NCBI RefSeq assembly: GCF_006874585.1
Contig: NZ_CP029762.1
Location: 62,001 to 126,000 of the forward strand
Length of the DNA stretch: 64,000 nt
DNA from: Sphingomonas sp. IC081
GTDB lineage: Bacteria; Pseudomonadota; Alphaproteobacteria; Sphingomonadales; Sphingomonadaceae
Direction of reading: 5' to 3'
Notes under the pieces: model-generated
Told to the model about the DNA's origin: nothing
Database searches by the model: none
The model's input: only the letters and a program-made list of their open reading frames with translations
Shown: piece after piece, positions 40,335 through 58,859 of the stretch
Layout of the letters: each line of letters opens with the position of its first letter
How positions within the stretch are numbered: the first letter of the stretch is position 1
Made by a program: the position numbers and the translations under genes

Positions 40335-40434
40335 CGATGGTGACCGCGTCCAAAAGCCGCCATTTAGCATGCCATATCCTCGCAAATCGCCGAATCCCGG
40401 TTTTCGGGCGGAGCGGTAACAAGGAAATGGATTG

Positions 40435-43113
<2,679 letters not shown>

Positions 43114-43329: not shown

Positions 43330-44199
43330 TCAGGCCTTGGCCGCCGCAAAACCGGCAAGGCGCAGGGCGCCGTCGAGGGAATCGCCCAGCGGTGCGCTCA
43401 GGCGTTCGACCGTGCGGGCGCGCAGCCAGGGCTGCATGCGCGGGGCGAGGCCGCCGACCAGCGAGCAGCGGGCGGCGCCGCGCTCGAAGATCGTCTCGAT
43501 GAAACGCTCGATGTGCCCGGCGGCATTCTCGACGATGGAACGGGCGATGGCGTCGTCCGCCTCGGCATAGCTCATCACCAGCGGCGCGAAAGTGCCGTAG
43601 TCGCGCGGGGTGGCGTGGTCCATCCAGGCGATGGCCTGGGCGGTGTCGTGTCCGAAACGCTCGGTCACGGCGGCGCTGAGCGGGGTCTTGCGGGTGCGCC
43701 CGTCGAGCGCGCGCAAGGCGTGGCGCATCGCCGACAGCCCTAGCGCGGCGCCGCTGCCCTCGTCCGAGATGGGGAAGCCGTAGCCGCCGATGGTGAAATC
43801 GCGGCCCTCGACGCGCAGCTGGGCGGCGCTGCCGGTGCCGATGATGAGGATCGCGCCGTCCTCGCCGCCATGGGCGCCGAGGTTGGCGATCTGCGCGTCG
43901 GTGGCGTAAGCGGCCGAGGCGAAACCGAAATCGAGCTCTGCCAGCGCCTCGCGCACGCCGGGGCGGGTGATCCCGGCGATGCCCATGCCGGCGTGGATGG
44001 TGGCGCGCTGGGCCGGGGTCAGGCCCGCCTCGGCGACCGCCTGATCCGCGGTCTCCCGCAAGGTGTCATAGAGCGCCTCGATGCCGATGCGCGCGTTGGC
44101 GGTGCCGGACTTGCCCTCGCCGATCGCGCGGCCCTGGGCATCGACCAGCCGGGCGCGGCAATTGCTGCCGCCTGCATCGATGCCGAGGTAGTAGGTCAT
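43330..44199 (-). CDS. nagK: N-acetylglucosamine kinase, BadF/BadG/BcrA ATPase family
   Basis: 289 residues. ASKHA-fold motifs: GIDAGGSNCRARLVD (phosphate 1), TDAQIANLGAHGG, and IIGTGSAAQLRVEG (phosphate 2). The start ATG (44197-44199) overlaps the D-lactate dehydrogenase stop as ATGA, and GGAG lies 7 nt upstream. It is the last gene of a five-gene coupled operon for amino-sugar breakdown, so the substrate is most likely GlcNAc freed inside the cell, giving GlcNAc-6-phosphate for NagA. Glucosamine is a possible alternative substrate of this family. Confidence 0.85.
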   Translation of the reverse strand: MTYYLGIDAGGSNCRARLVDAQGRAIGEGKSGTANARIGIEALYDTLRETADQAVAEAGLTPAQRATIHAGMGIAGITRPGVREALAELDFGFASAAYATDAQIANLGAHGGEDGAILIIGTGSAAQLRVEGRDFTIGGYGFPISDEGSGAALGLSAMRHALRALDGRTRKTPLSAAVTERFGHDTAQAIAWMDHATPRDYGTFAPLVMSYAEADDAIARSIVENAAGHIERFIETIFERGAARCSLVGGLAPRMQPWLRARTVERLSAPLGDSLDGALRLAGFAAAKA

Positions 44200-45938
44200 G
44201 GGTGTTCTCCGTGGGGCCCCGCGCAGGCATGGTCGTTCCAGTCGCGGCCACGGGGGGTATGGCCGATACCGGGATTGAGCTGGTTGCGCGGATCGATCTC
44301 GCGGTAGAACCGCGCCAGCTCGGGCCGGGCAACGTAGAGGTGGCCGACGTTGTGCTCGGCCGGATACTGGGCGCCGCGCGCGTCGAGCAGGGCCCAGAGC
44401 GCGTGTTCGAAGGCGAGCGGATCGGTGCCCTTCGTGACGATGTAGTCCTGGTGGAACACCTGGCAGAAGAAGTGCCCGTAATAGAGCGTGTGGACCGTGC
44501 GGGCGGCAAGCTCCGCGGGCAGCTGCTCCACCCAGTCGCGGGTATTGCGCGGCAGCGCGACGTCGAGGGCGACGATGTCTTCCACCGTGTCGCGGTGGAC
44601 GGCGCGGTAGCGCACGGCGGCACCCGCCGCGACGAAGCGGTGGAGGAAGGCCTTGGCGGCCTCCTGCGCGGTGCATTCGAAATGGTCGGCCTCGCCGCCG
44701 CCGGGGAACAACTCGCCGAGCAGTGCGCGGGCGGCATCGACCTGCTCGCGCGGGACTTTCAGGATCAGGTGATGGTCGAAGCGGGCGCGGTATTCGCGCA
44801 TGCGCGGCGGCAGATGATCGGGGATGAAGCGGCTCGACCATTGCATCAGGCGGTCGGACAGGCCGCCTCCGAACAGGCTGCCGAACAGCCCGTCGAAGCG
44901 CGATTTGGCGGCAAACAGCGCGGGCAGCCGGTCGGTGCCGAGCCGCTCGATCGCGAAGAACATGTCGCGCCCATAGCGGTCGGCGACGTCGAAGGCCTCG
45001 GCGTGCATGTATTCGCCGGCGATCGGCAGGGTGTCGAAATCGCGCAGCATCGTGCGGCGCAGCGCCGTCAGCCGGTCGGGCCGGCTGGTGCCGATGTAGA
45101 AGGTGCTGGTCTCCTCCTCGCGCGCGAAGGTGTCGAGGCGGACGGCAAAGACGATCAGCTTGCCCGCGCTTCCGGCGGCTTCGAACAGGCAGCGCGGGTC
45201 GGCGTTGAAGCGGGCGGGCACGTCGCTGTCGATGTCGCGCACGTGGGCCGCATAGCTGTGGTCGTGCGCCCACTTGTCACCGGCGGGGTCGATGTCGGCT
45301 TCGGTGAACTGGCCGCCGTCGAGCCGGGCGAGCATGGCCTCGGGCGCGTCACCCAGCGCGATGCCGAGGTGGTTGACGAGGCGCAGGCTGCCGTCCGGCT
45401 GGACCTGCGCGTAAAGCGCCAGCTGGGTATAGGCGGGCCCGCGCCGGATCAGCGAGCCGCCCGAATTGTTGCAGACCCCGCCCACCACCGAGGCGCCGAG
45501 GCAGGAGGAGCCGATCACCGAATGCGGCTCGCGCCCATAAGGGCGCAGCGCCGCTTCCAGCGCGTAGAGCGTGGTGCCGGGCAGGCAGAGCACCTGCTCG
45601 CCGCCGCGAATGACTTTCAGCGCCGAGAGCCGCGTCGTGCTGATGATGACGAGGCCGCCGGGATAGTCGTCGCCATCGGGTGTCGAGCCGCCGGTGAGGC
45701 CGGTGTTCGAGGCCTGCATGATGATCGAGACGTCCGCCGCCACGCAGGCCTGCACCGCCCGCCACAGTTCCACCAGGCTGCCCGGGCGCACCACCGCGAT
45801 CGCCGGGCCCTCGCCGGTGCGATAGCCCTTGCGGAACCGCGCCGTCGCCCGCGCCGAGGTCAGCACGTGGCGCCCGCCGACCGCGCCGCGCAGTTCGCCC
45901 AGCAGCTTGCGGTCTCGTGTCGTGGCGCTTGTCGTCAT
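44196..45938 (-). CDS. dld: Quinone-dependent D-lactate dehydrogenase
   Basis: 580 residues. An FAD-binding PCMH domain (about 30-260: IIMQASNTGLTGGSTPDG and NNSGGSLIRRGPAYTQ) is followed by the Dld-specific membrane-associated C-terminal domain (PREQVDAARALLGELFPGGGE, HNVGHLYVA). It oxidises D-lactate to pyruvate and passes electrons to the quinone pool at the inner membrane. Placement in an amino-sugar operon makes sense because MurQ, encoded in the same locus, releases D-lactate from MurNAc-6-phosphate. It starts 14 nt after the glycosidase gene and overlaps the kinase gene. Confidence 0.92.
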   Translation of the reverse strand: MTTSATTRDRKLLGELRGAVGGRHVLTSARATARFRKGYRTGEGPAIAVVRPGSLVELWRAVQACVAADVSIIMQASNTGLTGGSTPDGDDYPGGLVIISTTRLSALKVIRGGEQVLCLPGTTLYALEAALRPYGREPHSVIGSSCLGASVVGGVCNNSGGSLIRRGPAYTQLALYAQVQPDGSLRLVNHLGIALGDAPEAMLARLDGGQFTEADIDPAGDKWAHDHSYAAHVRDIDSDVPARFNADPRCLFEAAGSAGKLIVFAVRLDTFAREEETSTFYIGTSRPDRLTALRRTMLRDFDTLPIAGEYMHAEAFDVADRYGRDMFFAIERLGTDRLPALFAAKSRFDGLFGSLFGGGLSDRLMQWSSRFIPDHLPPRMREYRARFDHHLILKVPREQVDAARALLGELFPGGGEADHFECTAQEAAKAFLHRFVAAGAAVRYRAVHRDTVEDIVALDVALPRNTRDWVEQLPAELAARTVHTLYYGHFFCQVFHQDYIVTKGTDPLAFEHALWALLDARGAQYPAEHNVGHLYVARPELARFYREIDPRNQLNPGIGHTPRGRDWNDHACAGPHGEHP

Positions 45939-45952
45939 CGCGTGTTTCCCGC

Positions 45953-47017
45953 TTACTGGGTCTGGACCTCGTCGTCGGTCATCAGGTCATCGCCGTCCAG
46001 CCAGCGCAGGATCTCGCGCGCGGCGGGGTGATCGATGTCCCGATACCGTGCGCGCAGGCGGTCCGCCCGTGCGCCGAGGCGCTCGTAGCCGACGTCCTGC
46101 AGCGCCGGAAGGTCCTGCCGCAGCCGCTGCGTGAATTCCGCGCCGAGCAGCGTGCGCGCGGCGGCATCGAACGCGGCGCCATAGGCATAGCGCTCCCCTT
46201 TCGCGTAGAGCATCGGCAGCGTCAGCGCCGGAATGCAGCCGAGGTGCGCCTGGATCGCCGGGTTGACCGCATGGCCGCTGATGTGTTCGGCAATCGCCGC
46301 CGGACGGCCGGTAAAGGCGCGCAGGTGCAGGAAGCGCGACATCCGCGCCCCGTCGTTGACCGGCCAGTTGTCCCACAGGCAGACCTTGCGGCCGAGCTCG
46401 CCCGCCACGCGTTCGAGGTGCGCCGGGCCGATTTCCTTCGCGCAGACTTCCTCGCCGGTCCAGTAGACCTGCACGGCGCTGTCGAGCAGCCGCCCGAGCG
46501 TGCCGAGATAGTCCGCCGGACGGTCCGCGAAGACCAGGTCGAGCACCGGATCGTCGGAATAATAAGTCGGGCAGGTATAGACCCGCGTGGCCTTGGTCAG
46601 CCCGGCGCAGAAGTTGACGACATCGGCCTGCCGCTCGGCCAGCTGCGGCATGTCGCCGCGCAGATCGTCGAACAGCACCGCCAGGTCGTCGATGCCGATG
46701 GCGTCGAGGTCGGCGATGCGGCGGGCAAGGTCGGCCCGCGCGGCATCGTCGAAGGGATGGGTGGAGCCGACCGGGGTGATCGCCATGCCGAAACGCATGC
46801 CCGCCGCGCGGCATTCGGCGGAAAGCCGGGCGAGCGCCTCGCTCTGGGCGAGGTCATGCGCCTTGCGCCATTCGCGCCGCAGTGAACGGTCGGCCTTGGG
46901 GCCATAGTGGTAGAAACCGTAGCCGGCCCCGGCCAGCGTGCGCACCACGTGGCTGCGCTCGGCCGCGTCCCAGATCCGCCCGAAGCGGCCCTCGATCAGC
47001 CCGAGCGGCGGGGTCAC
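45953..47017 (-). CDS. GH84-type beta-N-acetylglucosaminidase, predicted cytosolic
   Basis: 354 residues. The family motifs are clear: EGRFGRIWD near the start, FYHYGPKAD (36-44), the catalytic Asp pair in VLFDDL (Asp117/Asp118), CPTYYSDDP, YWTGEEVCAKEI and WDNWPVNDG. These match O-GlcNAcase/hyaluronidase-like GH84 enzymes, which use the substrate acetamido group in catalysis. Unlike most bacterial members it has no signal peptide, no N-terminal domain and no C-terminal accessory domains. Coupled by ATGA to nagA upstream. Cytosolic placement suggests it acts on imported GlcNAc-containing saccharides. Confidence 0.85.
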   Translation of the reverse strand: MTPPLGLIEGRFGRIWDAAERSHVVRTLAGAGYGFYHYGPKADRSLRREWRKAHDLAQSEALARLSAECRAAGMRFGMAITPVGSTHPFDDAARADLARRIADLDAIGIDDLAVLFDDLRGDMPQLAERQADVVNFCAGLTKATRVYTCPTYYSDDPVLDLVFADRPADYLGTLGRLLDSAVQVYWTGEEVCAKEIGPAHLERVAGELGRKVCLWDNWPVNDGARMSRFLHLRAFTGRPAAIAEHISGHAVNPAIQAHLGCIPALTLPMLYAKGERYAYGAAFDAAARTLLGAEFTQRLRQDLPALQDVGYERLGARADRLRARYRDIDHPAAREILRWLDGDDLMTDDEVQTQ

Positions 47018-48237
47018 GCGTCTTCTCCCAGATCCTCGCGCGCGCCGCCGATCCAGGTGGCGCGCACGCGGCGCGCCTCATCCAGCAGCACGAGGTCGGC
47101 GCGCAGGCCCGGCGCGATGGTGCCGGTCTCGTGCTCCAGCCGCAGGAACCGCGCAGGGTTGCCGCTGGCCATGCGCGAGGCGGTGACGATGTCGCAGTAG
47201 AGCATGTCCATCGTGTTGCGCAGCGCCTCGGCCATCGTCAGCGCCGATCCCGCCAGGGTGCCGTCGGGGCCGGTGCACTTGCCGTTCGCCACGGTGATCT
47301 CGGTGCCCATCAGCGTGAAGGTGCCGCGCGTGCCGCCCACCGGCGGCATCGCGTCGGTCACCAGCATGATGCCCTCGGTGCCGCGCGCCTTGATGGCAAC
47401 CCGCATGGCGGCGGGGTGGACGTGGAAGCCGTCGACGATCAGCCCGCAGTAGCTGGCGCGGTCTTCCAGCGCCGCGCCGACCATGCCGGGATCGCGGCTG
47501 ACGAACTGGGTCATCGCGTTGAACAGGTGGGTAAACCCGGCCAGCCCTTCGGCCAGCGCGGCGTGGCTCTGCTGGTAATCGGCCATGCTGTGGCCCGCGC
47601 AGACAAGAATGCCCGCCTTGCTCAGCGCGCGCACCGATCCCGCCGGTGCCAGTTCGGGCGCCAGCGTCACCACCCGGCGGCCCAGCGTCGGCGCGGCGAG
47701 CCGGGCGATCACCTCGGCATCGACCGGCGCGAAGCGGGTCTGGTCGTGGATGCCCTTCTTGGCGGGGTTGAGGTGCGGGCCTTCGATATGGACGCCGAGC
47801 ACGCCCGGCACGCCTTCGGCCAGCGCTGCCTCGCCGGCCGCGATCGCCACGTCCACCGCCTCGGCATAGTCGCTGATCAGCGTGGGCAGCAGGCCGGTGG
47901 TGCCATAGCGGCGATGGGCGCGGGCGATGGCGCGGATGCCCTCCACCGTCGGGCTGTCGTTGAGCAGCACGTCGCCGCCGCCGTTGACCTGCACGTCGAT
48001 GAAGCCGGGCAGCAGCCAGCCGCCGTCGATCTGCTCGACACGGCAATCCTCGGGCAGGGTATCGCGCGGTGCGAGGCCGAGGATGCGATCGCCCGCAAGG
48101 AGCAGCGCCTGATCCTCGACCACGCGGTCGGCCAGCACGATGCGGGCGCCGACAAGCGCGGTAAGGGGGCGAGCCGCCTCGGGCATTGCGGGAGTCGTTG
48201 CGGGGTTCATGGCGGGGTTCATGGCCGACAGGCTCAT
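47014..48237 (-). CDS. nagA: N-acetylglucosamine-6-phosphate deacetylase
   Basis: 407 residues from ATG 48237, which overlaps the upstream stop as ATGA. An N-terminal low-complexity run (MNPAMNPA) makes it slightly longer than usual; 48219 and 48210 are alternative starts. Motifs: PGFIDVQVNGGG, GVHIEGPHLNP (metal-binding Glu), GHSMADY, THLFNAMTQF, DGFHVHP and the catalytic Asp in TDAMPPVGG. It deacetylates GlcNAc-6-P to GlcN-6-P for the adjacent deaminase. Its own stop overlaps the GH84 start. Confidence 0.95.
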   Translation of the reverse strand: MSLSAMNPAMNPATTPAMPEAARPLTALVGARIVLADRVVEDQALLLAGDRILGLAPRDTLPEDCRVEQIDGGWLLPGFIDVQVNGGGDVLLNDSPTVEGIRAIARAHRRYGTTGLLPTLISDYAEAVDVAIAAGEAALAEGVPGVLGVHIEGPHLNPAKKGIHDQTRFAPVDAEVIARLAAPTLGRRVVTLAPELAPAGSVRALSKAGILVCAGHSMADYQQSHAALAEGLAGFTHLFNAMTQFVSRDPGMVGAALEDRASYCGLIVDGFHVHPAAMRVAIKARGTEGIMLVTDAMPPVGGTRGTFTLMGTEITVANGKCTGPDGTLAGSALTMAEALRNTMDMLYCDIVTASRMASGNPARFLRLEHETGTIAPGLRADLVLLDEARRVRATWIGGAREDLGEDA

Positions 48238-49325
48238 AACGTGCGTGTCACTTTGTTGAGATGGGGCGGATTGTCCGGGTTGCGGCCGCGCGCCAGCGAC
48301 AGGGCATTGGCAAGACCGTAGAAGCTCTGGATCGCGGCGATGGCGCCCAGCACCGGGTGGACGTCGCTGCGTGAGGGCAGGGTGAGCGCGGCCGGGGCGA
48401 TGTCCTCGGCCATGCCGGCGGCGATCACTCTGGCGCCGCGCGCGGCAAAGTCGTCCAGCCGCTCGCGCAGGCCGGTGCGGGCGACGTCGAGCGGGGCAAG
48501 CACCAGCACCGGATCGCCCGCGCCGACCAGCGTCATCGGCCCATGCGCGACTTCGGCGCTGCTGAAGGCCTCGGCATGGAGGCTGGAGGTTTCCTTGAGC
48601 TTGAGCGCGGCCTCGCCGGCGATCGGCAGGGTCGGGCCGCGGCCCAGCACCAGCATGTCGCCGGCATCCTTCAGCAGTTCGACCGCCTGGGTCCAGTCGG
48701 CCGCGGCGGCGGCTTCGAGAACCTCGCCCGCGGTCTCGAGCGCGGCGAGCAGGGCCGCGTCCTCGCTCCATTCGGCCACGAGATGGGTGAGCGCGACGAG
48801 CGTGCAGACAAAGCTCTTGGTGGCGGCCACGCTGGTTTCGGGCCCGGCGTGCACCGGAATGACGATCTCGGCGAGGTCGGCCAGCGGCGACTGCGCGTCG
48901 TTGACCACGGCGATCACCACCGCGCCCTGCGCCTTGGCATCTTCGGCGGCGGCGAGCAGGTCGGGGCTGCGGCCGGACTGCGAGATCGCGATCAGCGGGA
49001 CCCCGGCAAAACGCGGCGACGTGGCATGGTAGAGCGAGCCGACCGAAGGCGCGTGGCTCAGCGTGGGCACCCCGGCATGGGTCTCCAGCAGGAACTTGGC
49101 AAAGGCGGCGGCCTGATCGGAACTGCCACGGGCAAGGGTGGCGGCAAACGGCGGGGCCAGCGCGCGCAGGCGGCGACCGGCCTCGCGCACCAGTTCGGCA
49201 TTGCGCTGCAATTGCTCGGTGCAGCGAAGCGGGGCCTCGCGGGCTTCCCGGGCCATCAGGGTCTCGCCCTCAGTGGCCTCCAGGTGCGTTTCTGGTGCGG
49301 TTAGGTCTGGCTTGGTCAGGGTCAT
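48234..49325 (-). CDS. nagB-II: Glucosamine-6-phosphate deaminase, SIS-domain type (NagB-II)
   Basis: 363 residues containing two SIS domains that resemble the isomerase half of GlmS without its glutamine amidotransferase half (ARGSSDQAAAFAKFLLE, SQSGRSPDLLAA, ETSVAATKSF, EVAHGPMTLV). The C-terminus RNPDNPPHLNKVTRTL is the conserved GlmS/NagB-II end. NagB-II enzymes of Shewanella and alphaproteobacteria convert GlcN-6-P to fructose-6-P and ammonia, replacing classic NagB. First gene of the minus-strand operon; promoter lies in the gap shared with the PP2C gene. AgaS-like activity is an alternative. Confidence 0.88.
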   Translation of the reverse strand: MTLTKPDLTAPETHLEATEGETLMAREAREAPLRCTEQLQRNAELVREAGRRLRALAPPFAATLARGSSDQAAAFAKFLLETHAGVPTLSHAPSVGSLYHATSPRFAGVPLIAISQSGRSPDLLAAAEDAKAQGAVVIAVVNDAQSPLADLAEIVIPVHAGPETSVAATKSFVCTLVALTHLVAEWSEDAALLAALETAGEVLEAAAAADWTQAVELLKDAGDMLVLGRGPTLPIAGEAALKLKETSSLHAEAFSSAEVAHGPMTLVGAGDPVLVLAPLDVARTGLRERLDDFAARGARVIAAGMAEDIAPAALTLPSRSDVHPVLGAIAAIQSFYGLANALSLARGRNPDNPPHLNKVTRTL

Positions 49326-49375: not shown

Positions 49376-49450
49376 TTTATTCCTCCTGACCTCATGATAC
49401 CGGTTCGGTGTTCCGCAAGGGATGCCGGAGTCGCAAGCTGGGAGAAGCCG

Positions 49451-50308
49451 ATGCTCAGGATCGAGATTGCCGCCACCGATGGCGCGGGCAGCGTCAAGGG
49501 CGGAGTCAACGAGGATTGCGTGGGCCACCATGGCAATGCCGCCTGGGTGATTGACGGGGCGACCGGCATTGGTCCCCGGTTGCTCGATGCGCCCAGCGAT
49601 GCCAGCTGGCTGGCGCAAAAGGCCAATGGCCTGCTGGCCGAGGGGCTGGCGCAAGACCCCGATATGCCGACCACCGAACTGCTGCGCCAGGTCATGCGCC
49701 AATGCGGCGAGGCTTTGCAGCGCGAGCAGACCGGTCCGCGCGCCGAGGCGCACGAGCACCCTTCGGCGGCCTTCGCGATGGTGCGGGTGATCGGCGGCGA
49801 GGCGGAGATCACGACGCTTGCCGATTGCCGTGTCATTGCAAATCAGGGGCAGGTTTTTGGCAGTTCGGCGCTCGACGCCATCGAGGCGCGCACGATTGCG
49901 GCCTTGCGGCAGATCCTTGCCGAAGAGGGGGAAATCTCGCCCGAGGCGTTCAAGGCGCGGCTGCTGCCGGGGCTTCTGGCCAATCGCCGGTTGATGAACC
50001 GCGCCGGTGGCTACTGGGTGCTGGGCACCGAGCCGCGCGCGGCGGATCATGTCTGGCAGGTGCGGTTCCCGGTCCGGCCGGGCGCGCGTTTCGCCCTGGC
50101 CAGTGACGGTTTCCTGCGCCTGTTCGAACTTTTCGATGCGGCCGAGCCCGCCGATCTGCTGGCCATTTCCGGGCAGCGGGACTGGGCGCATTGGCTGGCG
50201 CGGCTGCGCGAGCTGGAAAGCGCGCCGGAATCCCTGCGGCAATTCGCGCGGGTCAAGCGGCACGACGATGCGAGCCTTGTCATCTGTAGTTGGGAGAATG
50301 ACGGCTGA
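49451..50308 (+). CDS. PP2C-like serine/threonine phosphatase-fold protein
   Basis: 285 residues from ATG 49451 (GGAG at 7 nt). Metal-binding motifs of the PPM family are present: NEDCVGHHG, VIDGATGIG, ALASDGFLRL and a C-terminal KRHDDASLVI. No signal peptide, no membrane segment, no fused sensor. The stop overlaps the anmK start as TGATG. A phosphatase in an amino-sugar pathway could act on a sugar phosphate or regulate a pathway protein by dephosphorylation; neither is shown by sequence. No partner Ser/Thr kinase is seen nearby. Confidence 0.75.
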   Translation: MLRIEIAATDGAGSVKGGVNEDCVGHHGNAAWVIDGATGIGPRLLDAPSDASWLAQKANGLLAEGLAQDPDMPTTELLRQVMRQCGEALQREQTGPRAEAHEHPSAAFAMVRVIGGEAEITTLADCRVIANQGQVFGSSALDAIEARTIAALRQILAEEGEISPEAFKARLLPGLLANRRLMNRAGGYWVLGTEPRAADHVWQVRFPVRPGARFALASDGFLRLFELFDAAEPADLLAISGQRDWAHWLARLRELESAPESLRQFARVKRHDDASLVICSWENDG

Positions 50309-51414
50309 TGCTGGTCATGGGGTACATGAGCGGAACCTCGCTCGACGGCGTCGACGTGGCGCTGCTGGAAACCGATGGGGAACGGATCGCGGCCTTCGGG
50401 CCCGGGGCGATGACCGCCTATTCGGCGGCGGAGCGCGATGCGCTGGAAAAGGCCACGCGCGATGCGCTGGCCTGGAACGGGTATGGCGCAAGGCCGCATT
50501 CGTTCGCGCTGGCGGCCGAAGTGATCGAGGCGGCGCATCTGCGCGCCGGTGAACAGGTGATCGCACGGGCCGGGCGCAGGCCCGATCTGGTCGGTTTCCA
50601 TGGGCAGACGCTGCTGCACCGGCCCGAGCGGCGGCTGTCCGTGCAGATCGGCGACCCGCAGGTCCTCGCCGATGCGCTGGGCGTTTCGGTGGTTGCGCAG
50701 ATGCGGCAGGACGACCTGCTGGCGGGCGGGCAGGGCGCGCCGCTGGTGCCCGCCTATCATGCCGCGCTGGCGGAGCGGCTGGGCCTTGCGGGGCCGATCG
50801 CGTTCCTCAATCTCGGCGGCGTGGCGAACCTCACGTGGATCGGCGCGGACGGGTCGCTGGTGGCGTTCGACACCGGGCCGGGCAATGGCCTGATCGACCA
50901 GGTGGTGCAGGCGCGCGGGGCCGGTCGTTATGACGAGGGTGGGCGGATCGCGGCGGCGGGCGCGGTCGACGCGGCGGTGCTGGCCATGCTGCTGGAGCAC
51001 GAACATTTCCGGGGATCGGGTCCGAAGTCGCTTGACCGCTACGATTTTCCGCTCGAATGGGCGGGCGCCCGTTCGCTGGAAGATGCGGCGGCGACGCTGA
51101 CGGCGTTCACGGCGGAAGCGGTGCGGGCGTCGCTGCGGTTGCTGCCGGCGGCCCCGAAAGTGTGGATCGTCTGCGGCGGCGGGAGCCACAATCCCACGCT
51201 GATGCAGGCGCTGCGCGCGCGTCTCGGCGATTGCCGGACGGCGGACGAGGTGGGCCTGCGCGGCGACTATGTCGAGGCCGAGGCGATGGCCTTCCTGGCG
51301 GCGCGCAGCCTGCGCGGATTGCCGCTGACCTATCCCGGCACCACCGGGGTCGGGCGCCCCCTCACCGGCGGCGCGATCTGGCGGCCGGACGCGGCTCTGG
51401 CCGGAGTGGTCTGA
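50308..51414 (+). CDS. anmK: Anhydro-N-acetylmuramic acid kinase
   Basis: 368 residues with the family motifs GYMSGTSLDGVDVALL (phosphate-binding N-terminus), GFHGQTLLHRP, LNLGGVANLT, FDTGPGNGLID and CGGGSHNPTLM. AnmK cleaves the 1,6-anhydro ring of anhMurNAc and phosphorylates it to MurNAc-6-P, the substrate of MurQ further along the locus. Translationally coupled to the PP2C gene. A receptor gene follows after 114 bp that contain its likely promoter. Confidence 0.95.
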   Translation: MLVMGYMSGTSLDGVDVALLETDGERIAAFGPGAMTAYSAAERDALEKATRDALAWNGYGARPHSFALAAEVIEAAHLRAGEQVIARAGRRPDLVGFHGQTLLHRPERRLSVQIGDPQVLADALGVSVVAQMRQDDLLAGGQGAPLVPAYHAALAERLGLAGPIAFLNLGGVANLTWIGADGSLVAFDTGPGNGLIDQVVQARGAGRYDEGGRIAAAGAVDAAVLAMLLEHEHFRGSGPKSLDRYDFPLEWAGARSLEDAAATLTAFTAEAVRASLRLLPAAPKVWIVCGGGSHNPTLMQALRARLGDCRTADEVGLRGDYVEAEAMAFLAARSLRGLPLTYPGTTGVGRPLTGGAIWRPDAALAGVV

Positions 51415-51528
51415 GGGGCCTCCAGAAAACTACGACCAATAAAATACCAGCGCTTTACATATCCCATACAGGTATGCATGGTGCGAAAATGTGCCGGAGC
51501 AACGAACTCCGGCGCCAGGGAAACGACA

Positions 51529-54270
51529 ATGAGGAAGTCAAAAATGGTTAAGTTTCAAAGGACCATGGTCGCCACCACAGCGCTGGCGATTGCCCTGTCG
51601 CAAGGCACGGCGTTCGCACAGTCCGCCGATTCCGCCCCCGCCGACGATACCAGCGCCGCCGCTGAAATCGTCGTCACCGGCACCCGCATCTCGGTGGCCG
51701 GCCTGACTTCCAGCAGCCCTGTCGTTTCCACCGGCGAGCAGCAGATCAAGCTGCAGGCGGCGCTGACGGTGGAGGACTTCTCCACCAAGCTGCCCCAGCT
51801 TTCCGGCGGTGTCCGCCAGGGTTCGCAGGGCAGCGACGCCTTCGGCGCCCAGGTTCTCGAACTGCGCAACTTCGGCCAGAGCCGCTCGCTCGTGCTCATC
51901 GACGGCACCCGCGCGACTCCGTTCAGCTTCCGTAATTCGGCCGACGTCAACTCGATCCCCGCCTCGCTGATCAAGCGGGTCGACGTGCTGACCGGCGGCG
52001 CTGCCGCGGTCTACGGCGCCGACGCGGTGGCCGGTGTCGTCAACTTCATCCTCAACGACGATTTCGAAGGCATGCGCGGCACCGCGACGAGCCGCCTGTC
52101 CGAACATGGCGGCGCGCAGTACGGCGGTTCGCTGATGGTCGGCACCGGTCTTGGCGATCGCGGCCACATCGTCATCGCCGCCGACTACACCCAGCGCGAC
52201 CTCATCCGCGCCGGCCAGCGCGACTGGGCGGAAACCCCGAACCAGACGATTCCCAGCATCGGCGGCGTCTTCACCGACGTGGCGAGCGGCCGCAAGTTCG
52301 GCTTCACCGACAGCGGCGAGTTCACCACCAACCCGTCCGCCACCTCGAACATCTCGAACCGCTATCCGCTGGTCTCGCCGCTCAAGCGCATCAATGCCGC
52401 GGCGCTGTTCAAGTACGAGATCACTCCGCAGATCGAGGCCTATGGCCGCGTGATGTACAACAATTCGCGCACCCAGGAGACCGGCACCCCCGGCGCCACG
52501 CCGGTTTCGGTGAACCGCACCGTCTCGATCAGCGAGAGCAACCCCTACCTCACCGACGACATCCGCAACCAGCTGACCTTCGTCAACGGCGCGGCGCAGG
52601 TGAACGTCTCGCGCTCGCTGGCCGAACTCGGCCTCATCAACTACGAGACCGAGCGTAACACCCTGCAGGTCCAGACCGGCCTGCGCGGCCCGCTGACCGG
52701 CGCCACCAAGTGGAACGTCTACGCCCAGTACGGCCGCTCGACCGAGCACACGCTGATCACCGGCGACGGCCTCGTCACCAGCTCGACGGGCGCCAACAAG
52801 TTCGATTCCATCGTCAACAGCGTCAACATCTTCGGCCCCAACCAGAGCGGGATCGCCGAAGCGCTGGGCAGCTCGATCGAAGGTTTCGACCGCAAGCGCG
52901 ACCAGTTCGTGACGGCGGCGACCTTGAGCGGCACGCTGGAAGAGCTGTTCTCGCTGCCCGCCGGCCCGATCGGCTTCGCGGTCGGCCTCGAATACCGCCG
53001 CGAGACCGCCAGCATCAACCAGGACACCGCGCTGCTGACCGGCAACACCTACCGCCAGGGCGTGCAGTCGGCCTACAGCGGCGACTTCGACGTCAAGGAA
53101 CTCTACGGCGAAGTGCTGGTGCCGGTGCTGCGCGACCTGCCGCTGATCCGCAAGCTGGACGTGGGCGGCGCCTATCGTCTGTCGGACTACAACATGTTCG
53201 GCACCCACGGCACCTGGAAGGTCGAGGGCAACTGGGAAGTCGACGGCAACCTGCGCCTGCGCGGCACCTACCAGCGCGTCCTGCGCACGCCGAACTTCGG
53301 TGAATTCGCCGCCGGCATGTCGTCGCTGCCGTTCAGCAGCCTGGTCACGGTCGACCGCCTGAAGCCGCGCTACGGCGGCGATCCCTGCGTGCTGGGCACC
53401 GGCGATGCGGCCCAGTGCGCCCGCTTCGGCGCCCCGGCGGTGGGTTCGGCCAACTCGACTTCGGCCAGCTACCTGACCGGCAACTACTATTATGGCGGCA
53501 ACCCGGACATCAAGCCGGAAACCGGCTACACCACCACGCTGGGCGCGGTGTTCACGCCGCGCTTCCTGCCGGGCCTCAACGTCACCGTCGACTGGTACGA
53601 GCTTGACCTGCGCGGCGCGGTGGGCGTGATCCAGCCGATCGCGGCGATCACCAGCTGCTACGTCACCAACCCGACCGCCAGCAATCCGCTGTGTTCGCTG
53701 GTGACCCGCAATGCCGACGGCACCTTCAAGGACGCCTATGTCAACAACCAGAACCTGGGACGCCTGCTCCAGCGCGGTTTCGACATCTCGGCCAGCTACA
53801 CGCTGCATCCCGCGTTCCTGCCGGGCGAGGGCCTGCGCCTGAGCTATCAGGGCAACATCGTCACCTCGTACCTGATCCAGGCCAACTCCACCGTTTCGGC
53901 GGTGCAGTGCAAGGGCACCTTCGGCGCCACCTGCTCGAGCGACGGCACCACGCTGGTCCAGCCCGATTACCGTCACACCGCCGGTCTTTCCTGGCTGTTC
54001 GACAAGGGCGTGATCCAGTTCGACTGGCAGCGTATCGGCAAGGTCAAGTCGAGCACGGTCGGTTCGACCGAGACGATCTCGGCGCAGAACACCTTCGACC
54101 TTTCGGCCTCCTATGAGTTCACCGACGCGATCACCTTCAGCGCCGGCATCTACAACCTGTTCGACAAGAATCCTCCTTATGTGTCGACGGGCGGTGTCTT
54201 CAACACCTTCCCCGACACATACGACATCCTCGGACGCACGATCGGCTTCTCGCTGACCGCGCATATCTGA
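51529..54270 (+). CDS. TonB-dependent receptor of the amino-sugar locus
   Basis: 913 residues from ATG 51529 (AGGGA at 8 nt; ATG 51544 with GAGGAAG is also possible). Signal peptide ends near GTAFAQSAD. TonB-box-like EIVVTGTRI, plug with RSLVLIDGTRATPF and IPASLIKRVDVLTGGAAAVYGADAVAGVVNF, then a barrel ending in GFSLTAHI. The plug is that of the sphingomonad broad receptor class with no STN domain. Flanked by AnmK and a symporter, it most likely carries peptidoglycan-derived or chitin-derived saccharides over the outer membrane. It does not end in Phe, which is less usual. Confidence 0.88.
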   Translation: MRKSKMVKFQRTMVATTALAIALSQGTAFAQSADSAPADDTSAAAEIVVTGTRISVAGLTSSSPVVSTGEQQIKLQAALTVEDFSTKLPQLSGGVRQGSQGSDAFGAQVLELRNFGQSRSLVLIDGTRATPFSFRNSADVNSIPASLIKRVDVLTGGAAAVYGADAVAGVVNFILNDDFEGMRGTATSRLSEHGGAQYGGSLMVGTGLGDRGHIVIAADYTQRDLIRAGQRDWAETPNQTIPSIGGVFTDVASGRKFGFTDSGEFTTNPSATSNISNRYPLVSPLKRINAAALFKYEITPQIEAYGRVMYNNSRTQETGTPGATPVSVNRTVSISESNPYLTDDIRNQLTFVNGAAQVNVSRSLAELGLINYETERNTLQVQTGLRGPLTGATKWNVYAQYGRSTEHTLITGDGLVTSSTGANKFDSIVNSVNIFGPNQSGIAEALGSSIEGFDRKRDQFVTAATLSGTLEELFSLPAGPIGFAVGLEYRRETASINQDTALLTGNTYRQGVQSAYSGDFDVKELYGEVLVPVLRDLPLIRKLDVGGAYRLSDYNMFGTHGTWKVEGNWEVDGNLRLRGTYQRVLRTPNFGEFAAGMSSLPFSSLVTVDRLKPRYGGDPCVLGTGDAAQCARFGAPAVGSANSTSASYLTGNYYYGGNPDIKPETGYTTTLGAVFTPRFLPGLNVTVDWYELDLRGAVGVIQPIAAITSCYVTNPTASNPLCSLVTRNADGTFKDAYVNNQNLGRLLQRGFDISASYTLHPAFLPGEGLRLSYQGNIVTSYLIQANSTVSAVQCKGTFGATCSSDGTTLVQPDYRHTAGLSWLFDKGVIQFDWQRIGKVKSSTVGSTETISAQNTFDLSASYEFTDAITFSAGIYNLFDKNPPYVSTGGVFNTFPDTYDILGRTIGFSLTAHI

Positions 54271-54288: not shown

Positions 54289-54333
54289 GGCGCCCGGTCA
54301 CCCCTCCTCCTCCGACCGGGCGCCCGCTTTTTT
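54289..54333 (+). terminator. Intrinsic terminator of the receptor gene
   Basis: GGCGCCCGGTC and GACCGGGCGCC form an 11-bp stem (54289-54299 with 54314-54324), followed after CGC by six T residues. This is the clearest intrinsic terminator in the window. Confidence 0.88.
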
Positions 54334-54382
54334 GTCGGGCCCTGAGCACCCGCGTTCAGGGCCGGGTCCGGAGACGAGTTCG

Positions 54383-55948
54383 ATGATGTTGCCTTTCACG
54401 ACGGCGGACTGGCTGGTGATCGCCGGCTATCTGCTGCTGCTGCTCGCGGGAGGCTGGATCTTCACGCCGCGCAAGACCGAGTCCGCGCATGACTACTTCC
54501 TGGCAGGCGGCAGCGTCCCCGCCTGGCTGGCGGCGGTTTCGGTGCTCTCGGCCACGCAGTCGGCCGCGACGTTCCTGGGCGGGCCGGACTACGGTTATCA
54601 CGGCGACCTTACCTATCTCAGCGGCAATATCGGCGGACTGATCGGCGCGATCTTTGTCGCCAAGGTGATGATCCCGCGCTTCTACGCGATCAAGGCGACC
54701 ACCGCCTACGAACTGCTGACCCTGCGCTTCAGCGAGAAGGCGACGCGCTGGGCGGGCGGCATGTTCCTGATCGGCCGCGTCTTTGCGGGCGGCGCGCGGG
54801 TCTATCTGGCCGCCATCGCGCTGGCCATGGTGATCACCGGCACGGTCGAGGCGCAGGGCATCATGATTGCCGCGGCGCTGCTGATCGTGGCGAGCGTGCT
54901 GTTCACCTTTGTCGGCGGCCTCAAGTCGGTGCTGTGGAACGACCTGATCCAGTTCGTGGTCTACCTGGGCTCGGCGATCGCGGTGCTGGTGTTCCTGCGG
55001 CTTTCGATCCCCGCCTCGACCGGCGAGATCATCCAGGGCCTTGCCCATACGCCCGAGGGCGTGAACAAGCTCAAGATCCTCGACTTCTCGCTCGACACCT
55101 CGCACCCGTTCTCGGTGCTGGCGATCGTGCTGGGGCTCTCGCTGCTCTACATCGCCAATTCCGGCATGGACCAGGACACCACCCAGCGCCTGCTCGCCTG
55201 CAAGGACGCCAAGACCGGTGCGCGCGGCCTCTATCTTTCGGTCTTCGCGACCGTGCCGGTGGTGGGCATGTTCATCGTTATCGGCCTGCTGCTCCATGTC
55301 TTCTACGACCGGCCCGACCTGATGGGCGGGGCGACGGCAGCCGCCGGAAACCAGTTCGGCGGCGAGAAGATCAGCATCTTCATGCACTACATCCTCACTC
55401 AGCTTCCCGGGGGGCTGCGCGGTCTTGTCACCGTGGGCATCTGCGCGGCGGCAGTGGCCACTACCAATTCGGCGCTCAACGCCATGTCCTCGGTGCTGGT
55501 GCAGGACTTCTACCGTCCCTGGCGCGAGAAGCGCGGCGCTGCCGCGCCCGAGCATCACTTCGTTTCCGCCGGCCGGGTGGGCATGGGCGTGATCGGCGCG
55601 GCGATGTTCGTCATGGCGGTCGTCTCGTTCTACTGGCAGCGCTATACCGACATGGGGCTGCTGGAGTTCGCGCTGCAGGTCATGGTCTTCACCTATGCGG
55701 GCCTGCTGGGCGTCTATTTCACCGCCCTGTTCACCGGGCGGGGGACGACGGGTTCGGTCATCGCCTCGCTCCTGATCGGCTTTGCCACCATCCTGTTGCT
55801 TCAGCCGGGCATCGCCCATGCCATCGGCATGCCGGCCATGCTGAGCAAACTTTCGTTCCCGTTCCAGCTTTGCATCGGCACGCTTGTCGCATTCGTCGTT
55901 TGCGCGGTGCCTGCCGGATCGGGCAAACTCATGGCTCCGGCCGAATGA
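54383..55948 (+). CDS. Sodium:solute symporter (SSS family), predicted amino-sugar importer
   Basis: 521 residues from ATG 54383 (GGAG 8 nt upstream). About thirteen hydrophobic segments; the first (ADWLVIAGYLLLLLAGGWIF) and the sodium-site region SVLSATQSAATFLGGPDYGYHG and the SSF signature ARVYLAAIALAMVITG match the family. Neighbours make GlcNAc, anhMurNAc or their disaccharide likely substrates. Located after a terminator and 28 bp before murQ, so it may start the second plus-strand unit. Confidence 0.88.
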   Translation: MMLPFTTADWLVIAGYLLLLLAGGWIFTPRKTESAHDYFLAGGSVPAWLAAVSVLSATQSAATFLGGPDYGYHGDLTYLSGNIGGLIGAIFVAKVMIPRFYAIKATTAYELLTLRFSEKATRWAGGMFLIGRVFAGGARVYLAAIALAMVITGTVEAQGIMIAAALLIVASVLFTFVGGLKSVLWNDLIQFVVYLGSAIAVLVFLRLSIPASTGEIIQGLAHTPEGVNKLKILDFSLDTSHPFSVLAIVLGLSLLYIANSGMDQDTTQRLLACKDAKTGARGLYLSVFATVPVVGMFIVIGLLLHVFYDRPDLMGGATAAAGNQFGGEKISIFMHYILTQLPGGLRGLVTVGICAAAVATTNSALNAMSSVLVQDFYRPWREKRGAAAPEHHFVSAGRVGMGVIGAAMFVMAVVSFYWQRYTDMGLLEFALQVMVFTYAGLLGVYFTALFTGRGTTGSVIASLLIGFATILLLQPGIAHAIGMPAMLSKLSFPFQLCIGTLVAFVVCAVPAGSGKLMAPAE

Positions 55949-55976: not shown

Positions 55977-56867
55977 ATGAATACTGAAGCGCTCGACGCC
56001 CGTTATCTCGATCTCGACCTCTGGCCGACCGAACTGGCGGTGGAGGCTATGCTGGAAGGGCAACTGGCCGCCATCGCCGCCGTCCAGTCGCAGACGGCCG
56101 CCATTGCCGCTGCGGCCGACGCCGCCGCGGCGCGGCTCGGGGACACCGGGCGACTGGTCTTTGCAGGGGCCGGCACCTCCGGCCGGCTGGCGGTGCAGGA
56201 CGGCACCGAACTCTACCCGACCTACAGCTGGGGGCCGGAGCGGCTGGTGTTCCTCATGGCCGGGGGCGCGGGCGCGCTGACCGAGGCGGTCGAAGGGGCC
56301 GAGGACGATGCCGAGGCCGGGCGGGCCGCCGTCGTACAGGACGCGATCGGCCCTGACGACGTGGTGATCGGCGTCGCCGCGAGCGGCCGGACGCCCTATA
56401 CCCTCGCCGTCATCGAGCAGGCGCGCGCCGCCGGGGCGCTGACGATCGGCGTGGCCAACAATCCGGGTTCCGCGCTGCTCGAAAGCGCCGAGCACGGGGT
56501 GCTGGTGAAGACCGGCAGCGAGGTTGTCGGCGGGTCCACCCGCATGAAGGCGGGCACCGCGCAGAAGGCGGTGCTGAACCTCTTGACCACCGCGATCATG
56601 ATCCGCTTGGGCCTTGTCTATCAGGGGCGCATGGTGGCGATGCGGATTTCCAATGCGAAGCTCTTGCAACGCGGCAGAAACATGGTCCAGGATATTGCCG
56701 GGGTAGAGGCCGATGCCGCGGAGCGTGCGCTGGCGGCGGCGGACAACGACATCCGGCTCGGCGTCATCGCCGCGCTGGGCGTGCCGGTGGCGGAAGGCAA
56801 GGCACTGCTCGATGTGCACAAGGGCAATCTGCGGCACGTGCTGCAGGTGCTCGAAACGCGGGACTGA
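55977..56867 (+). CDS. murQ: N-acetylmuramic acid 6-phosphate etherase
   Basis: 296 residues with an SIS domain: FAGAGTSGRLAVQDGTEL, the active-site AVEGAEDDAEAG, GVAASGRTPY and the closing EVVGGSTRMKAGTAQK. MurQ splits MurNAc-6-P into GlcNAc-6-P and D-lactate. The products are handled by NagA/NagB-II and D-lactate dehydrogenase in the divergent operon, which ties the two halves of the locus together. AAGGA lies 6 nt before the ATG. The GntR gene begins 6 nt after the stop. Confidence 0.95.
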   Translation: MNTEALDARYLDLDLWPTELAVEAMLEGQLAAIAAVQSQTAAIAAAADAAAARLGDTGRLVFAGAGTSGRLAVQDGTELYPTYSWGPERLVFLMAGGAGALTEAVEGAEDDAEAGRAAVVQDAIGPDDVVIGVAASGRTPYTLAVIEQARAAGALTIGVANNPGSALLESAEHGVLVKTGSEVVGGSTRMKAGTAQKAVLNLLTTAIMIRLGLVYQGRMVAMRISNAKLLQRGRNMVQDIAGVEADAAERALAAADNDIRLGVIAALGVPVAEGKALLDVHKGNLRHVLQVLETRD

Positions 56868-56873
56868 TCGACG

Positions 56874-57602
56874 ATGCGTGACATTGCCTGGACCCGCAGC
56901 GAGGAGGGCACGCCCCTCTACCTGCAACTCGCCCGCAGCCTGCGTGAACATATCAACAGCGGGGCGATCGATCCGGGCAGCGCGGTGCCATCCGAGCGCG
57001 AGCTGAGCGAGATGGCCGGCCTCTCGCGCGTCACGGTACGCAAGGGCATCGAACAGCTGATCGGCGAAGGCGTGCTGGTCCGCAAGCAGGGGTCGGGCAC
57101 GTTCGTTGCCAAGCGGATCGAGGCGCCCGGCGCGCGTCTCAGCAGCTTCAGCACCGATGCCCGACTGCGCGGCGAGGATCCGGGCGTCGTGTGGATCTAC
57201 AAGTCCTATGCCCAGCCGACCGAGGAAGAGGCCGCCGCGCTCGGCGTGCCGGTGACGGCGCGGGTGGCGCGGCTTGGCCGCGTCCGCCTGTCGGGCGGCG
57301 AACCGCTGGCGATCGAGCATGCGGTGATCCCGGCCGAGTTCATGCCGGATCTCGAAAGCCTGGGGGACTCGCTCTACCAGGCGCTCGAGACCCATGGTTT
57401 CTGTCCGACGACCGGAACCCAGCGCGTCCGCGCCTCGCTGGCGACGCCGACCGAGGCGGGCATCCTCTGCGTGAAGCAGAATTCCGAAGTCCTGCGCATC
57501 GAACGCACGACCCGCATTCCCGATGGCCGCATCGTCGAGTTCACCCGCTCGGTCTATCGCGGCGACCGCTACGAGTTCGTGACCGACCTCAAGGAACTGT
57601 GA
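56874..57602 (+). CDS. GntR/HutC-family regulator (UTRA domain)
   Basis: 242 residues. Winged helix at about 10-75 (PLYLQLARSLREHINSG, SERELSEMAGLSRVTVRKGI, LVRKQGSGTFVA) and a UTRA ligand-binding domain at about 95-235. Members such as NagR/YvoA and DasR respond to GlcN-6-P or GlcNAc-6-P. As the last gene of the locus it is the natural local regulator; inducer could be GlcNAc-6-P or MurNAc-6-P. Candidate half-sites are in the divergent promoter at 49337-49375. Confidence 0.88.
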   Translation: MRDIAWTRSEEGTPLYLQLARSLREHINSGAIDPGSAVPSERELSEMAGLSRVTVRKGIEQLIGEGVLVRKQGSGTFVAKRIEAPGARLSSFSTDARLRGEDPGVVWIYKSYAQPTEEEAAALGVPVTARVARLGRVRLSGGEPLAIEHAVIPAEFMPDLESLGDSLYQALETHGFCPTTGTQRVRASLATPTEAGILCVKQNSEVLRIERTTRIPDGRIVEFTRSVYRGDRYEFVTDLKEL

Positions 57603-57644: not shown

Positions 57645-58859
57645 TCAGTTGACCGAATTGGTGACGGCGACGACCGAGAACGCCGCGCTCGATACCGTGT
57701 TGATGAACTTCTGCAGGTCGACCGCCGGCGCATTCGAGACAAACAGCACGTCGCGATCCTCGATGGTGAAGTCCTGCGCCAGGAACAGGCTCTGCGCTTG
57801 CGACATGTCGAGGCGGTAGATCACCGGGACCTTGCCGTCGCGCGTGCGCCGGGCGGTTTCGGCCATGGCCGGGGCGAGCGCGGCGGGGTCTTCAAGACGG
57901 AACACGAAGACGCCGCGGACATTGGCCTGCTGGTCGATCAGCCCGCCGACCCGGCCGAGCGCCTGCGCCAGCGAAAGGCCGCCGCCCTCGAAGGGTACTT
58001 CGGAGCTCCGGCTCACCGCACCCAGCGCGATGAAGCTGTAGGGCTGGAACATCACGGTCAGCACGTCGCCAGGCTGGACGATGATGTTCTGCTTGGGATC
58101 GCGCACGACGGTGTCCAGCGGCATGCGCGCCACGGCGGTGCCGCGGGCGAGCTGCAGGGTGGTCTTGCCGACCGGCTGGCGCGGGCCGCCGCTGCTGGCG
58201 ATGATGTCGAGCAGGCGCTCGCCCCGCGCGGTCAGCGGTACGCGCCGGCTGGCGCCGACTTCGCCCAGCACGGTGACCGTCCGCGCCTCGTTCTGGACGA
58301 GGCGCACGACGACCTGCGGATCGTGGGCGCGCCCCTTGAGGCGCGCGGCGATGGTGCGCTCCACCTCGGCCGGCGTGCGGCCGAGCACCGGCACCTGGCC
58401 GACAAAGGGGATGGTCACGGTGCCATCCTCGCCCACCATCTGCTGGGGGATCGCCGCGCCCTGGGCAACGGCCATGCCGGTCTCGACCCGGGCGCTGCCG
58501 AACAGCACCGCAGGCGGTGCTTCCCAGACGCCGATGTCGAGCACGTCGCCGGTCCCGATCACCGTGCCGACCGGCGTGCCCGTGCCGAACAGGTCGGAGA
58601 AGTGCCGCGACTGCGCGTAGTCGCGCCCCCGCCCGATCACGGCATCGCTGAGGTCGACGACGTGGATGTCCGCGTCGGCCTGAGCGGTCTTGCCATGCGC
58701 GGTCTTGCCCGCGGCCTTTCCAGCCTCCGTAATCGCGCCGGTGGACGGGCCGGAACTGCCGAAACTGGCGCAGCCCGACAAGGCGGCAAGGCCCAGCGCC
58801 ACGGCGGCGGGGCGCAGGAGCAGGGCCACACGGCGGCAGCGGCTGGCGGGGACTGTCAC
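57645..58859 (-). CDS. Polysaccharide export lipoprotein (KpsD/Wza/BexD-like)
   Basis: 404 residues from a GTG start (58857-58859) that overlaps the upstream glycosyltransferase stop as GTGA. Lipobox LSGC (Cys30). A poly-export domain at about 95-185 (GTVIGTGDVLDIGVWEAP and PFVGQVPVLGRTPAEVERTI) and SLBB-type repeats after it (TVLGEVGASRRVPLTARG, VQPGDVLTVMF). It should form the outer-membrane channel for capsule or exopolysaccharide. The partners KpsT, KpsM and KpsE lie upstream in the same operon. Confidence 0.9.
   Translation of the reverse strand: MTVPASRCRRVALLLRPAAVALGLAALSGCASFGSSGPSTGAITEAGKAAGKTAHGKTAQADADIHVVDLSDAVIGRGRDYAQSRHFSDLFGTGTPVGTVIGTGDVLDIGVWEAPPAVLFGSARVETGMAVAQGAAIPQQMVGEDGTVTIPFVGQVPVLGRTPAEVERTIAARLKGRAHDPQVVVRLVQNEARTVTVLGEVGASRRVPLTARGERLLDIIASSGGPRQPVGKTTLQLARGTAVARMPLDTVVRDPKQNIIVQPGDVLTVMFQPYSFIALGAVSRSSEVPFEGGGLSLAQALGRVGGLIDQQANVRGVFVFRLEDPAALAPAMAETARRTRDGKVPVIYRLDMSQAQSLFLAQDFTIEDRDVLFVSNAPAVDLQKFINTVSSAAFSVVAVTNSVN

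Follow-up and report, generated by a model that had tools for sequence, protein, structure and literature searches.

Our data favor a model in which the compact GH84 protein encoded at 45953-47017 (minus strand) of the window, as we call the whole stretch of 64,000 nucleotides analyzed here, is a cytoplasmic exo-β-N-acetylglucosaminidase that would cut GlcNAc-anhMurNAc. From the sequence comparisons, we consider it quite likely that members of its clade have replaced the GH3 enzyme NagZ in several gammaproteobacteria and that the window protein supplements NagZ in its own organism. With somewhat less assurance, we think that the compact GH84 clade is the cytoplasmic muropeptide β-N-acetylglucosaminidase of many Gram-negative bacteria, which would have exchanged places with NagZ at this step at least six times in one order, been acquired separately by Marinobacter and by other gammaproteobacteria, and been built into MurNAc catabolic clusters in Sphingomonadales. 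The initial annotation had placed a GH84 enzyme here in place of NagZ; this interpretation is partly supported: it fails for the genome, is probably correct as to the reaction, and seems to reach further than supposed.

In our model, a TonB-dependent receptor and a symporter would import cell-wall sugars, and the GH84 protein would release GlcNAc in the cytoplasm from GlcNAc-anhMurNAc and, as comparison suggests, probably also from GlcNAc-MurNAc. The GlcNAc would enter the kinase, NagA, and NagB-II route, and the anhMurNAc would be converted by AnmK to MurNAc-6-P, which MurQ would split into GlcNAc-6-P and D-lactate, the latter then being oxidized by Dld. The kinase/NagA/NagB-II, AnmK, MurQ, and Dld steps are established for these families, and AnmK requires free anhMurNAc. 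By analogy with the family, the substrate would assist its own cleavage, its 2-acetamido group acting as the nucleophile and Asp117 and Asp118 forming the catalytic pair. In the window organism, the enzyme would act as a cluster-borne supplement beside NagZ, probably for uptake and catabolism of imported disaccharide, while Marinobacter and other gammaproteobacteria would depend on it mainly or wholly for this step. That the step does need an enzyme is indicated by the reported accumulation of GlcNAc-anhMurNAc in a Caulobacter nagZ deletion (PMC13046382).

The gene cluster and its GH84 protein

The GH84 gene lies in a cluster in which anmK, murQ, nagA, nagB-II, and a GlcNAc kinase gene occur together, as in MurQ-type MurNAc catabolism. 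On the minus strand are genes for a NagB-II-like SIS glucosamine-6-P deaminase (48234-49325; PF01380; NF046059 311.4 bits, under the cut-off of 430), the GlcNAc-6-P deacetylase NagA (47014-48237; TIGR00221 288.8 bits, above the cut-off of 225.65), the GH84 protein, the D-lactate dehydrogenase Dld, which would act on the D-lactate that MurQ sets free (44196-45938; NF008387 859.2 bits, cut-off 391), and a GlcNAc kinase of the BadF/BcrA ATPase family (43330-44199; PF01869; NF046058 NagK_SO3507 241.6 bits, under the cut-off of 370). nagB-II and nagA share 4 bases, and the nagA stop overlaps the GH84 start by another 4, which bears out the stop-start coupling described initially. On the plus strand are genes for a PP2C-like protein (49394-50308; PF13672 23.4 bits, just below the cut-off of 24), the final base of which is the first base of the gene for the anhydro-N-acetylmuramic acid kinase AnmK (50308-51414; NF007141 474 bits, cut-off 352), the TonB-dependent receptor (51478-54270; PF00593, PF07715), a sodium:solute symporter (54332-55948; PF00474 1.3e-25), the MurNAc-6-P etherase MurQ (55977-56867; NF003915 327.7 bits, cut-off 168; TIGR00274 248.2 bits, under the cut-off of 302), and, adjoining murQ, a GntR/UTRA regulator (56874-57602; PF00392, PF07702). 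Of the genes listed in the initial annotation, AnmK, MurQ, NagA, and D-lactate dehydrogenase each clear the cut-off of a curated family model; the family matches of NagB-II and the GlcNAc kinase hold but fall short of their equivalog cut-offs. Ten genes of the cluster, scanned with Pfam and NCBIfam, gave no match to GH3.

Our gene calls are matched by an independent annotation, which shows the same cluster on pABRDHK22, a 757-kb plasmid of Novosphingobium sp. EMRT-2. The counterpart of the PP2C-like gene is annotated there as "protein phosphatase 2C domain-containing protein"; relatives of this phosphatase-like gene, found here in a cell-wall sugar cluster, are present in 18 of 80 surveyed loci, and relatives of the GntR/UTRA regulator in 27 of 80. 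In the window organism the cluster lies on a contig of 1,036,088 bases (G000:C2), between a pyruvate phosphate dikinase gene (40432-43113, plus strand) and a polysaccharide export gene (57645-58859, minus strand). Given this 1.04-Mb contig and the EMRT-2 plasmid, the cluster may travel with secondary replicons.

The GH84 open reading frame starts with GTG and encodes 354 aa, of which residues 6-299 match the GH84 profile PF07555 with 167.4 bits (E 5.9e-49; cut-off 25); the Asp-Asp pair, the GlcNAc-site residues, and the barrel fold likewise place the protein in this family. Its best NCBIfam model, NF041654 (β-N-acetylglucosaminidase), scores 96.9 bits, far under the cut-off of 1000. PF07555 was the only Pfam match (E up to 0.01) and NF041654 the only NCBIfam match (E up to 0.001), with none to GH3 or the NagZ model NF003740. 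By family the protein does not count as a NagZ, but its function may resemble that of NagZ. Asp117 and Asp118, named as catalytic in the initial annotation, are invariant among 103 compact relatives and align with Asp119 and Asp120 of TtOGA, while Asp222 aligns with Asp228; in TtOGA, Asp119 and Asp120 are described as catalytic and Asp228 as part of the substrate site (PMC4683255). Altogether, 62 positions, including Asp117, Asp118, and Asp222, are at least 95% conserved in the 103 compact proteins. Lys41, Asp117, Asp118, Tyr153, Trp186, Asp216, Asn217, Asn221, Asp222, and Asn252 are kept in at least 95% of these relatives and also in three long GH84 proteins of Sphingomonadales, and we take Lys41, Tyr153, Trp186, Asp216, and the other conserved positions, partly from general knowledge of the family, to be GlcNAc-site residues. 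His249, Tyr271, Pro167, and Gly310 are conserved within the compact clade and differ in the three long relatives. His231 and Arg233 are conserved among 54 compact sequences but not across the larger set of 103.

An AF2 model of the protein (mean pLDDT 93.2, pTM 0.92), used instead of a first model from 5 sequences (pLDDT 70.9), retrieved TtOGA (5diy) as the best solved match, followed by human and other bacterial OGA, and nearly all of the 50 structure matches listed are GH84/OGA by title (Z 31.7-35.2). The fold is like those of TtOGA (Z 35.2, rmsd 2.8, 326 aligned) and OgOGA (2xsa; Z 34.0, rmsd 3.1, 327 aligned), and the Asp-Asp pair and substrate residues are common to all three. Unlike these two enzymes, the compact clade carries its own residues at His249, Tyr271, and Pro167 and has a murQ/anmK context, and the window protein has a shorter C-terminal part (354 aa compared with about 462-474 for the TtOGA chain and 447 for OgOGA). 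Its residues 1-342 align with residues 2-378 of TtOGA; it is more than 100 residues shorter than TtOGA, and the absent part is mostly the OGA helical bundle, which is thus shortened. The first strand of the barrel begins at residue 5 in the model, leaving no room for a signal peptide; this agrees with the initial annotation and is consistent with the predicted cytoplasmic location.

NagZ in the window organism and in the order of Marinobacter

A GH3 search of the window organism's assembly gave six matches, among them a NagZ of 336 aa on another contig (G000:C1:2760663-2761505; NF003740 219.8 bits, cut-off 207). It contains the motifs KHxPGHG and DSH, which we take to be marks of NagZ, and its neighbors presumably are scpA, a SPOR gene, and argS. 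The initial claim that there is no GH3 enzyme of the NagZ type therefore stands for the locus, in which ten genes were scanned, and falls for the genome: the search for NagZ that had been proposed with it found what is, as far as sequence tells, a functional NagZ elsewhere, so GH84 does not act in place of NagZ in this organism. An organism lacking NagZ is ruled out by the NF003740 match. AnmK gave one match in the same assembly, the window copy, and GH84 is likewise present once. Because NagZ could make the same cut here, the GH84 protein is likely a supplement under the cluster's own control, with NagZ serving ordinary turnover.

The co-occurrence survey that had also been proposed was run in the order of Marinobacter, in 244 evenly drawn genomes, with a GH84 profile (A2) built from 54 compact sequences. 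Compact GH84 was found in 65 genomes and NagZ in 139 (130 above the cut-off), and the two were mutually exclusive, with NagZ in 1 of 65 GH84 genomes versus 138 of 179 others (Fisher p 2.3e-29, a statistic that ignores kinship). In the one genome with both (G376), the GH84 gene (11222-12072 of L287) is broken, its start being followed by a gap of about 80 residues and then by the remainder in two frames, so that no intact overlap was seen among the 244 genomes. AnmK, matched in 214 of 244, follows whichever enzyme is present, being kept in 62 of 64 GH84-only and 134 of 138 NagZ-only genomes and in the one with both, compared with 17 of 41 with neither. Exclusion of NagZ together with retention of AnmK is the pattern expected of a substitute that cuts GlcNAc-anhMurNAc, and in this order, though not in most Sphingomonadales, compact GH84 is found where NagZ has been lost and AnmK kept.

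Some of these calls are less certain. Five of the 65 GH84 genomes (G288, G319, G362, G376, and G390) score 172-239 bits or have the gene in pieces, and TtOGA itself, at 204.8 bits with profile A2, comes near their weak scores. Twelve NagZ calls are GH3 open reading frames of 390-670 aa near or below the cut-off (G316, G339, G353, G380, G382, G387, G391, G414, G432, G438, G453, and G513); when these are left out, the overlap is 1 among 127 NagZ genomes (p 6e-25). The AnmK-bearing genomes with neither NagZ nor GH84 are G283, G286, G301, G313, G330, G333, G346, G350, G370, G379, G407, G417, G423, G431, G452, G472, and G480, and 6 of these 17 have GH20; a third enzyme for the GlcNAc-anhMurNAc step may exist.

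The presence of NagZ in the window genome, and the operon-like run of GH84 with nagA, nagB-II, and the GlcNAc kinase gene, would also fit a hydrolase of the chitobiase type, or one acting on GlcNAc disaccharides in general, that supplies the GlcNAc kinase, with the anhMurNAc coming from the NagZ of the genome. We regard this as rather unlikely. The anmK, murQ, and dld genes of the cluster serve MurNAc, not chitin, and such an activity would leave both the exclusion between GH84 and NagZ and the retention of AnmK unexplained. Moreover, the occurrence of GH20 is unrelated to that of GH84 in the order of Marinobacter (13 of 65 genomes with GH84 vs 33 of 179 without, p 0.85), though GH20 is rarer with NagZ (18 of 139 vs 28 of 105, p 0.008). 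Of the GH84-only genomes, 51 also lack GH20, and 49 of these 51 keep AnmK.

GH84 loci and related murQ clusters

A scan of public genomes gave 332 relatives of the window protein, and the best 80 of the 332 loci, kept for comparison by tblastn, are by title mostly from Novosphingobium, Sphingomonas, and their allies, with 27 from Marinobacter. The fetched stretch contains murQ and/or anmK in 35 of the 80 loci (murQ in 34, anmK in 22), and the GH84 proteins of these 35 are down to 53% identical to the window protein (L075), so that these linked loci are not duplicates from a single strain; 45 loci, including all 27 of Marinobacter, have neither gene nearby. No viral relatives were matched by tblastn. 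One locus, L048, is filed under the title Arthrobacter sp. TPD3018; its GH84 pairs with that of Sphingomonas aquatilis, and the label is probably wrong.

At 1e-20 the NagZ model matched 51 of the 80 genomes behind these loci, 39 of them above the curated cut-off; two of the 51, the Gemmatimonadota MAGs L078 and L084, owe the match to open reading frames of 625-657 aa that score under the cut-off, and two Rubrivivax MAGs (L077, L083) have both NagZ and GH84. The 29 genomes lacking a match at this threshold are all 27 of Marinobacter, one Sphingosinicella (L080), and one Sphingomonas (L029), the last of which holds an anmK-murQ-GH84 cluster. Even at E 1e-5, none of the 27 GH84-bearing Marinobacter genomes gave a NagZ match; genes can be missed in drafts, but faulty assembly would hardly account for absence from all 27. 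Marinobacter aquaeolei VT8 appears in a published list of genomes with amgK and murU (PMC5371407, section 7). With NagZ in most of the 80 genomes and in that of the window organism, the exclusion is not universal, and in most of the Sphingomonadales genomes read GH84 and NagZ co-occur.

Among 196 genomes of Sphingomonadales, the window organism included, the window protein matched 8, comprising five compact proteins (370-805 bits) and the three long GH84 proteins mentioned above (654-681 aa; 76-87 bits). MurQ was found in 26 of the 196 at 1e-30, none above the TIGR00274 cut-off, and the 26 include three of the five compact-GH84 genomes; six murQ-bearing genomes of the window organism's own family gave no compact GH84 match. 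Ten further murQ loci of the order (L121-L130), in which ten open reading frames were scanned, resemble the window cluster in having murQ with a varying set of SSF symporter, nagA, nagB-II, GlcNAc kinase, and anmK genes, and gave no GH84 match in any of the ten. In GH84's stead, L121 (5980-8468) has genes for NamZ and a PBP4B-like protein, as judged by Pfam, while L123, by the scan, and L126, in part, have MFS carrier, S13-peptidase, and penicillin-amidase-like genes. In L128, from genome G027, tblastn revealed a NagZ-like stretch beyond anmK; the gene concerned (5201-8275 of L286, minus strand), located between anmK and the symporter gene, encodes 1024 aa in which a GH3 domain (4e-85; 195.1 bits with the NagZ model, a little short of the cut-off of 207) is fused to NamZ (1e-75). 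Thus at least one such cluster carries a NagZ-type enzyme where the window cluster has GH84.

NamZ and PBP4B-like genes also occur beside GH84 itself. In G116 (L011/L019) GH84 is preceded by the gene for the exo-N-acetylmuramidase NamZ, with about 350 bases between the two, and L051 has a PBP4B-like gene (187 bits, under the cut-off of 385) directly upstream of GH84, in a cluster of open reading frames that recurs in L047, L052, and L054. In E. coli, the PBP4B gene is located with murQP. The presence of NamZ in L121 and, as the GH3-NamZ fusion, in G027, two murQ clusters lacking GH84, suggests that NamZ is a usual partner in the pathway, and could be taken to mean that GH84 acts on another cell-wall fragment, for example as a NamZ-like exo-muramidase. 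This we find very improbable, because the GH84 residues known to hold GlcNAc are conserved, NamZ and GH84 lie side by side in G116, and the exclusion with NagZ would be left unexplained. We count the fusion in G027 and the NamZ gene beside GH84 in G116 in favor of GlcNAc-anhMurNAc cleavage by GH84. Finally, TtOGA and OgOGA are the closest structures, but a protein O-GlcNAcase is scarcely to be expected in a sugar catabolic cluster, all the more as the window protein ends inside the region of the helical bundle for which a role in recognizing the protein part of OGA substrates has been proposed (PMC4683255), 60 of the 65 GH84 genomes in the order of Marinobacter gave no match to a GT41-type OGT (PF13844), and OGT is no commoner with GH84 than without it (5 of 65 vs 24 of 179, p 0.27).

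Proposed replacement of NagZ and separate origins of GH84

Cleavage of GlcNAc-anhMurNAc by compact GH84 would make this protein the counterpart of NagZ in proposed reaction, compartment, and pathway position, and its phyletic substitute in the order of Marinobacter, from an unrelated sequence family. The two families also differ in mechanism: the nucleophile of NagZ is an Asp, which works with an Asp-His dyad, and GH84 catalysis is substrate-assisted. A bacterial GH84 for glycan nutrition has precedents in BbhIV and BbhV of Bifidobacterium bifidum, which differ in that their described substrates are mucin O-glycans, outside the MurNAc pathway (PMC10245121). Processing of anhydro-muropeptides by NagZ, AmpD, and LdcA has been called conserved within Gram-negative bacteria (PMC5371407, Fig. 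1 legend). If our reading is true, recycling maps that use NagZ as a marker would be wrong in GH84 lineages, the GH84 branch would gain a bacterial role beyond glycoprotein and mucin breakdown, and there would be a clear case of a central-pathway enzyme replaced by an unrelated one. NagZ is also a drug target, and studies of its inhibitors aim at compounds that spare GH84 enzymes, human OGA among them (PMC3920638); bacteria of the GH84 lineages would then be expected to escape selective NagZ inhibitors and to be hit by OGA inhibitors. Among the matches listed in a search of the titles and abstract starts of open-licence papers, none links GH84 with muropeptides or NagZ loss, and a closed paper is possible.

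We built a tree of 100 genomes (47 with GH84, 47 with NagZ, and 6 with neither) from five neighboring genes, namely AnmK and four that we take from their sequences to encode an M23 peptidase, TyrS, ErpA, and ArgC; in the order given, the five are present in 100, 96, 91, 86, and 74 of the genomes. As the genomes were chosen for AnmK with printed coordinates, the tree speaks to separate origins and is no unbiased test of exclusion. The three-state label requires 11 Fitch changes compared with a mean of 37.6 in 300 shuffles and is thus clumped as expected, yet far from a single event. The GH84 state changes 8 times, 7 times when two genomes with doubtful NagZ are removed, and 6 times when eight tips are removed, which leaves six separate GH84 groups. 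In the GH84 gene tree, the Marinobacter proteins group with alphaproteobacterial proteins (support 0.987, with L080 apart) and not with 20 others of their order, suggesting at least two acquisitions; the basal branching of the compact clade is weakly supported (0.264). The twenty GH84 proteins of the order that fall outside the Marinobacter-like group share only 34-41% identity with that of the window, and function may therefore differ between GH84 groups.

The gammaproteobacterial genes also have a place of their own. In 13 of 20 fetched gammaproteobacterial loci, GH84 sits, with gaps in single genomes, in one shared run that we read, from familiarity with the sequences, as pabC, mltG, tmk, holB, pilZ, tatD, GH84, tig, clpP, clpX, and lon. 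The NagZ loci of 20 sister genomes (including G376) have other neighbors: the mltG-tmk-holB-tig-clpP run was not recognized in any of the 20 loci read, and in 3 of them the opposite strand has a tatD-like gene close to NagZ. NagZ was thus lost from one site and GH84 is kept at a different one, and for the 20 loci read these differing neighbors rule out an in-situ swap at the nagZ site.

A compact GH84 protein 42% identical to that of the window is also encoded in the Aeromonas caviae record NZ_AP026896.1 (L284), which is filed as a plasmid and, at 4.94 Mb, is probably a chromosome. A NagZ probe at 1e-40 gave 33 records, all of them listed and none from Aeromonas, and A. caviae may be a further case of GH84 without NagZ.
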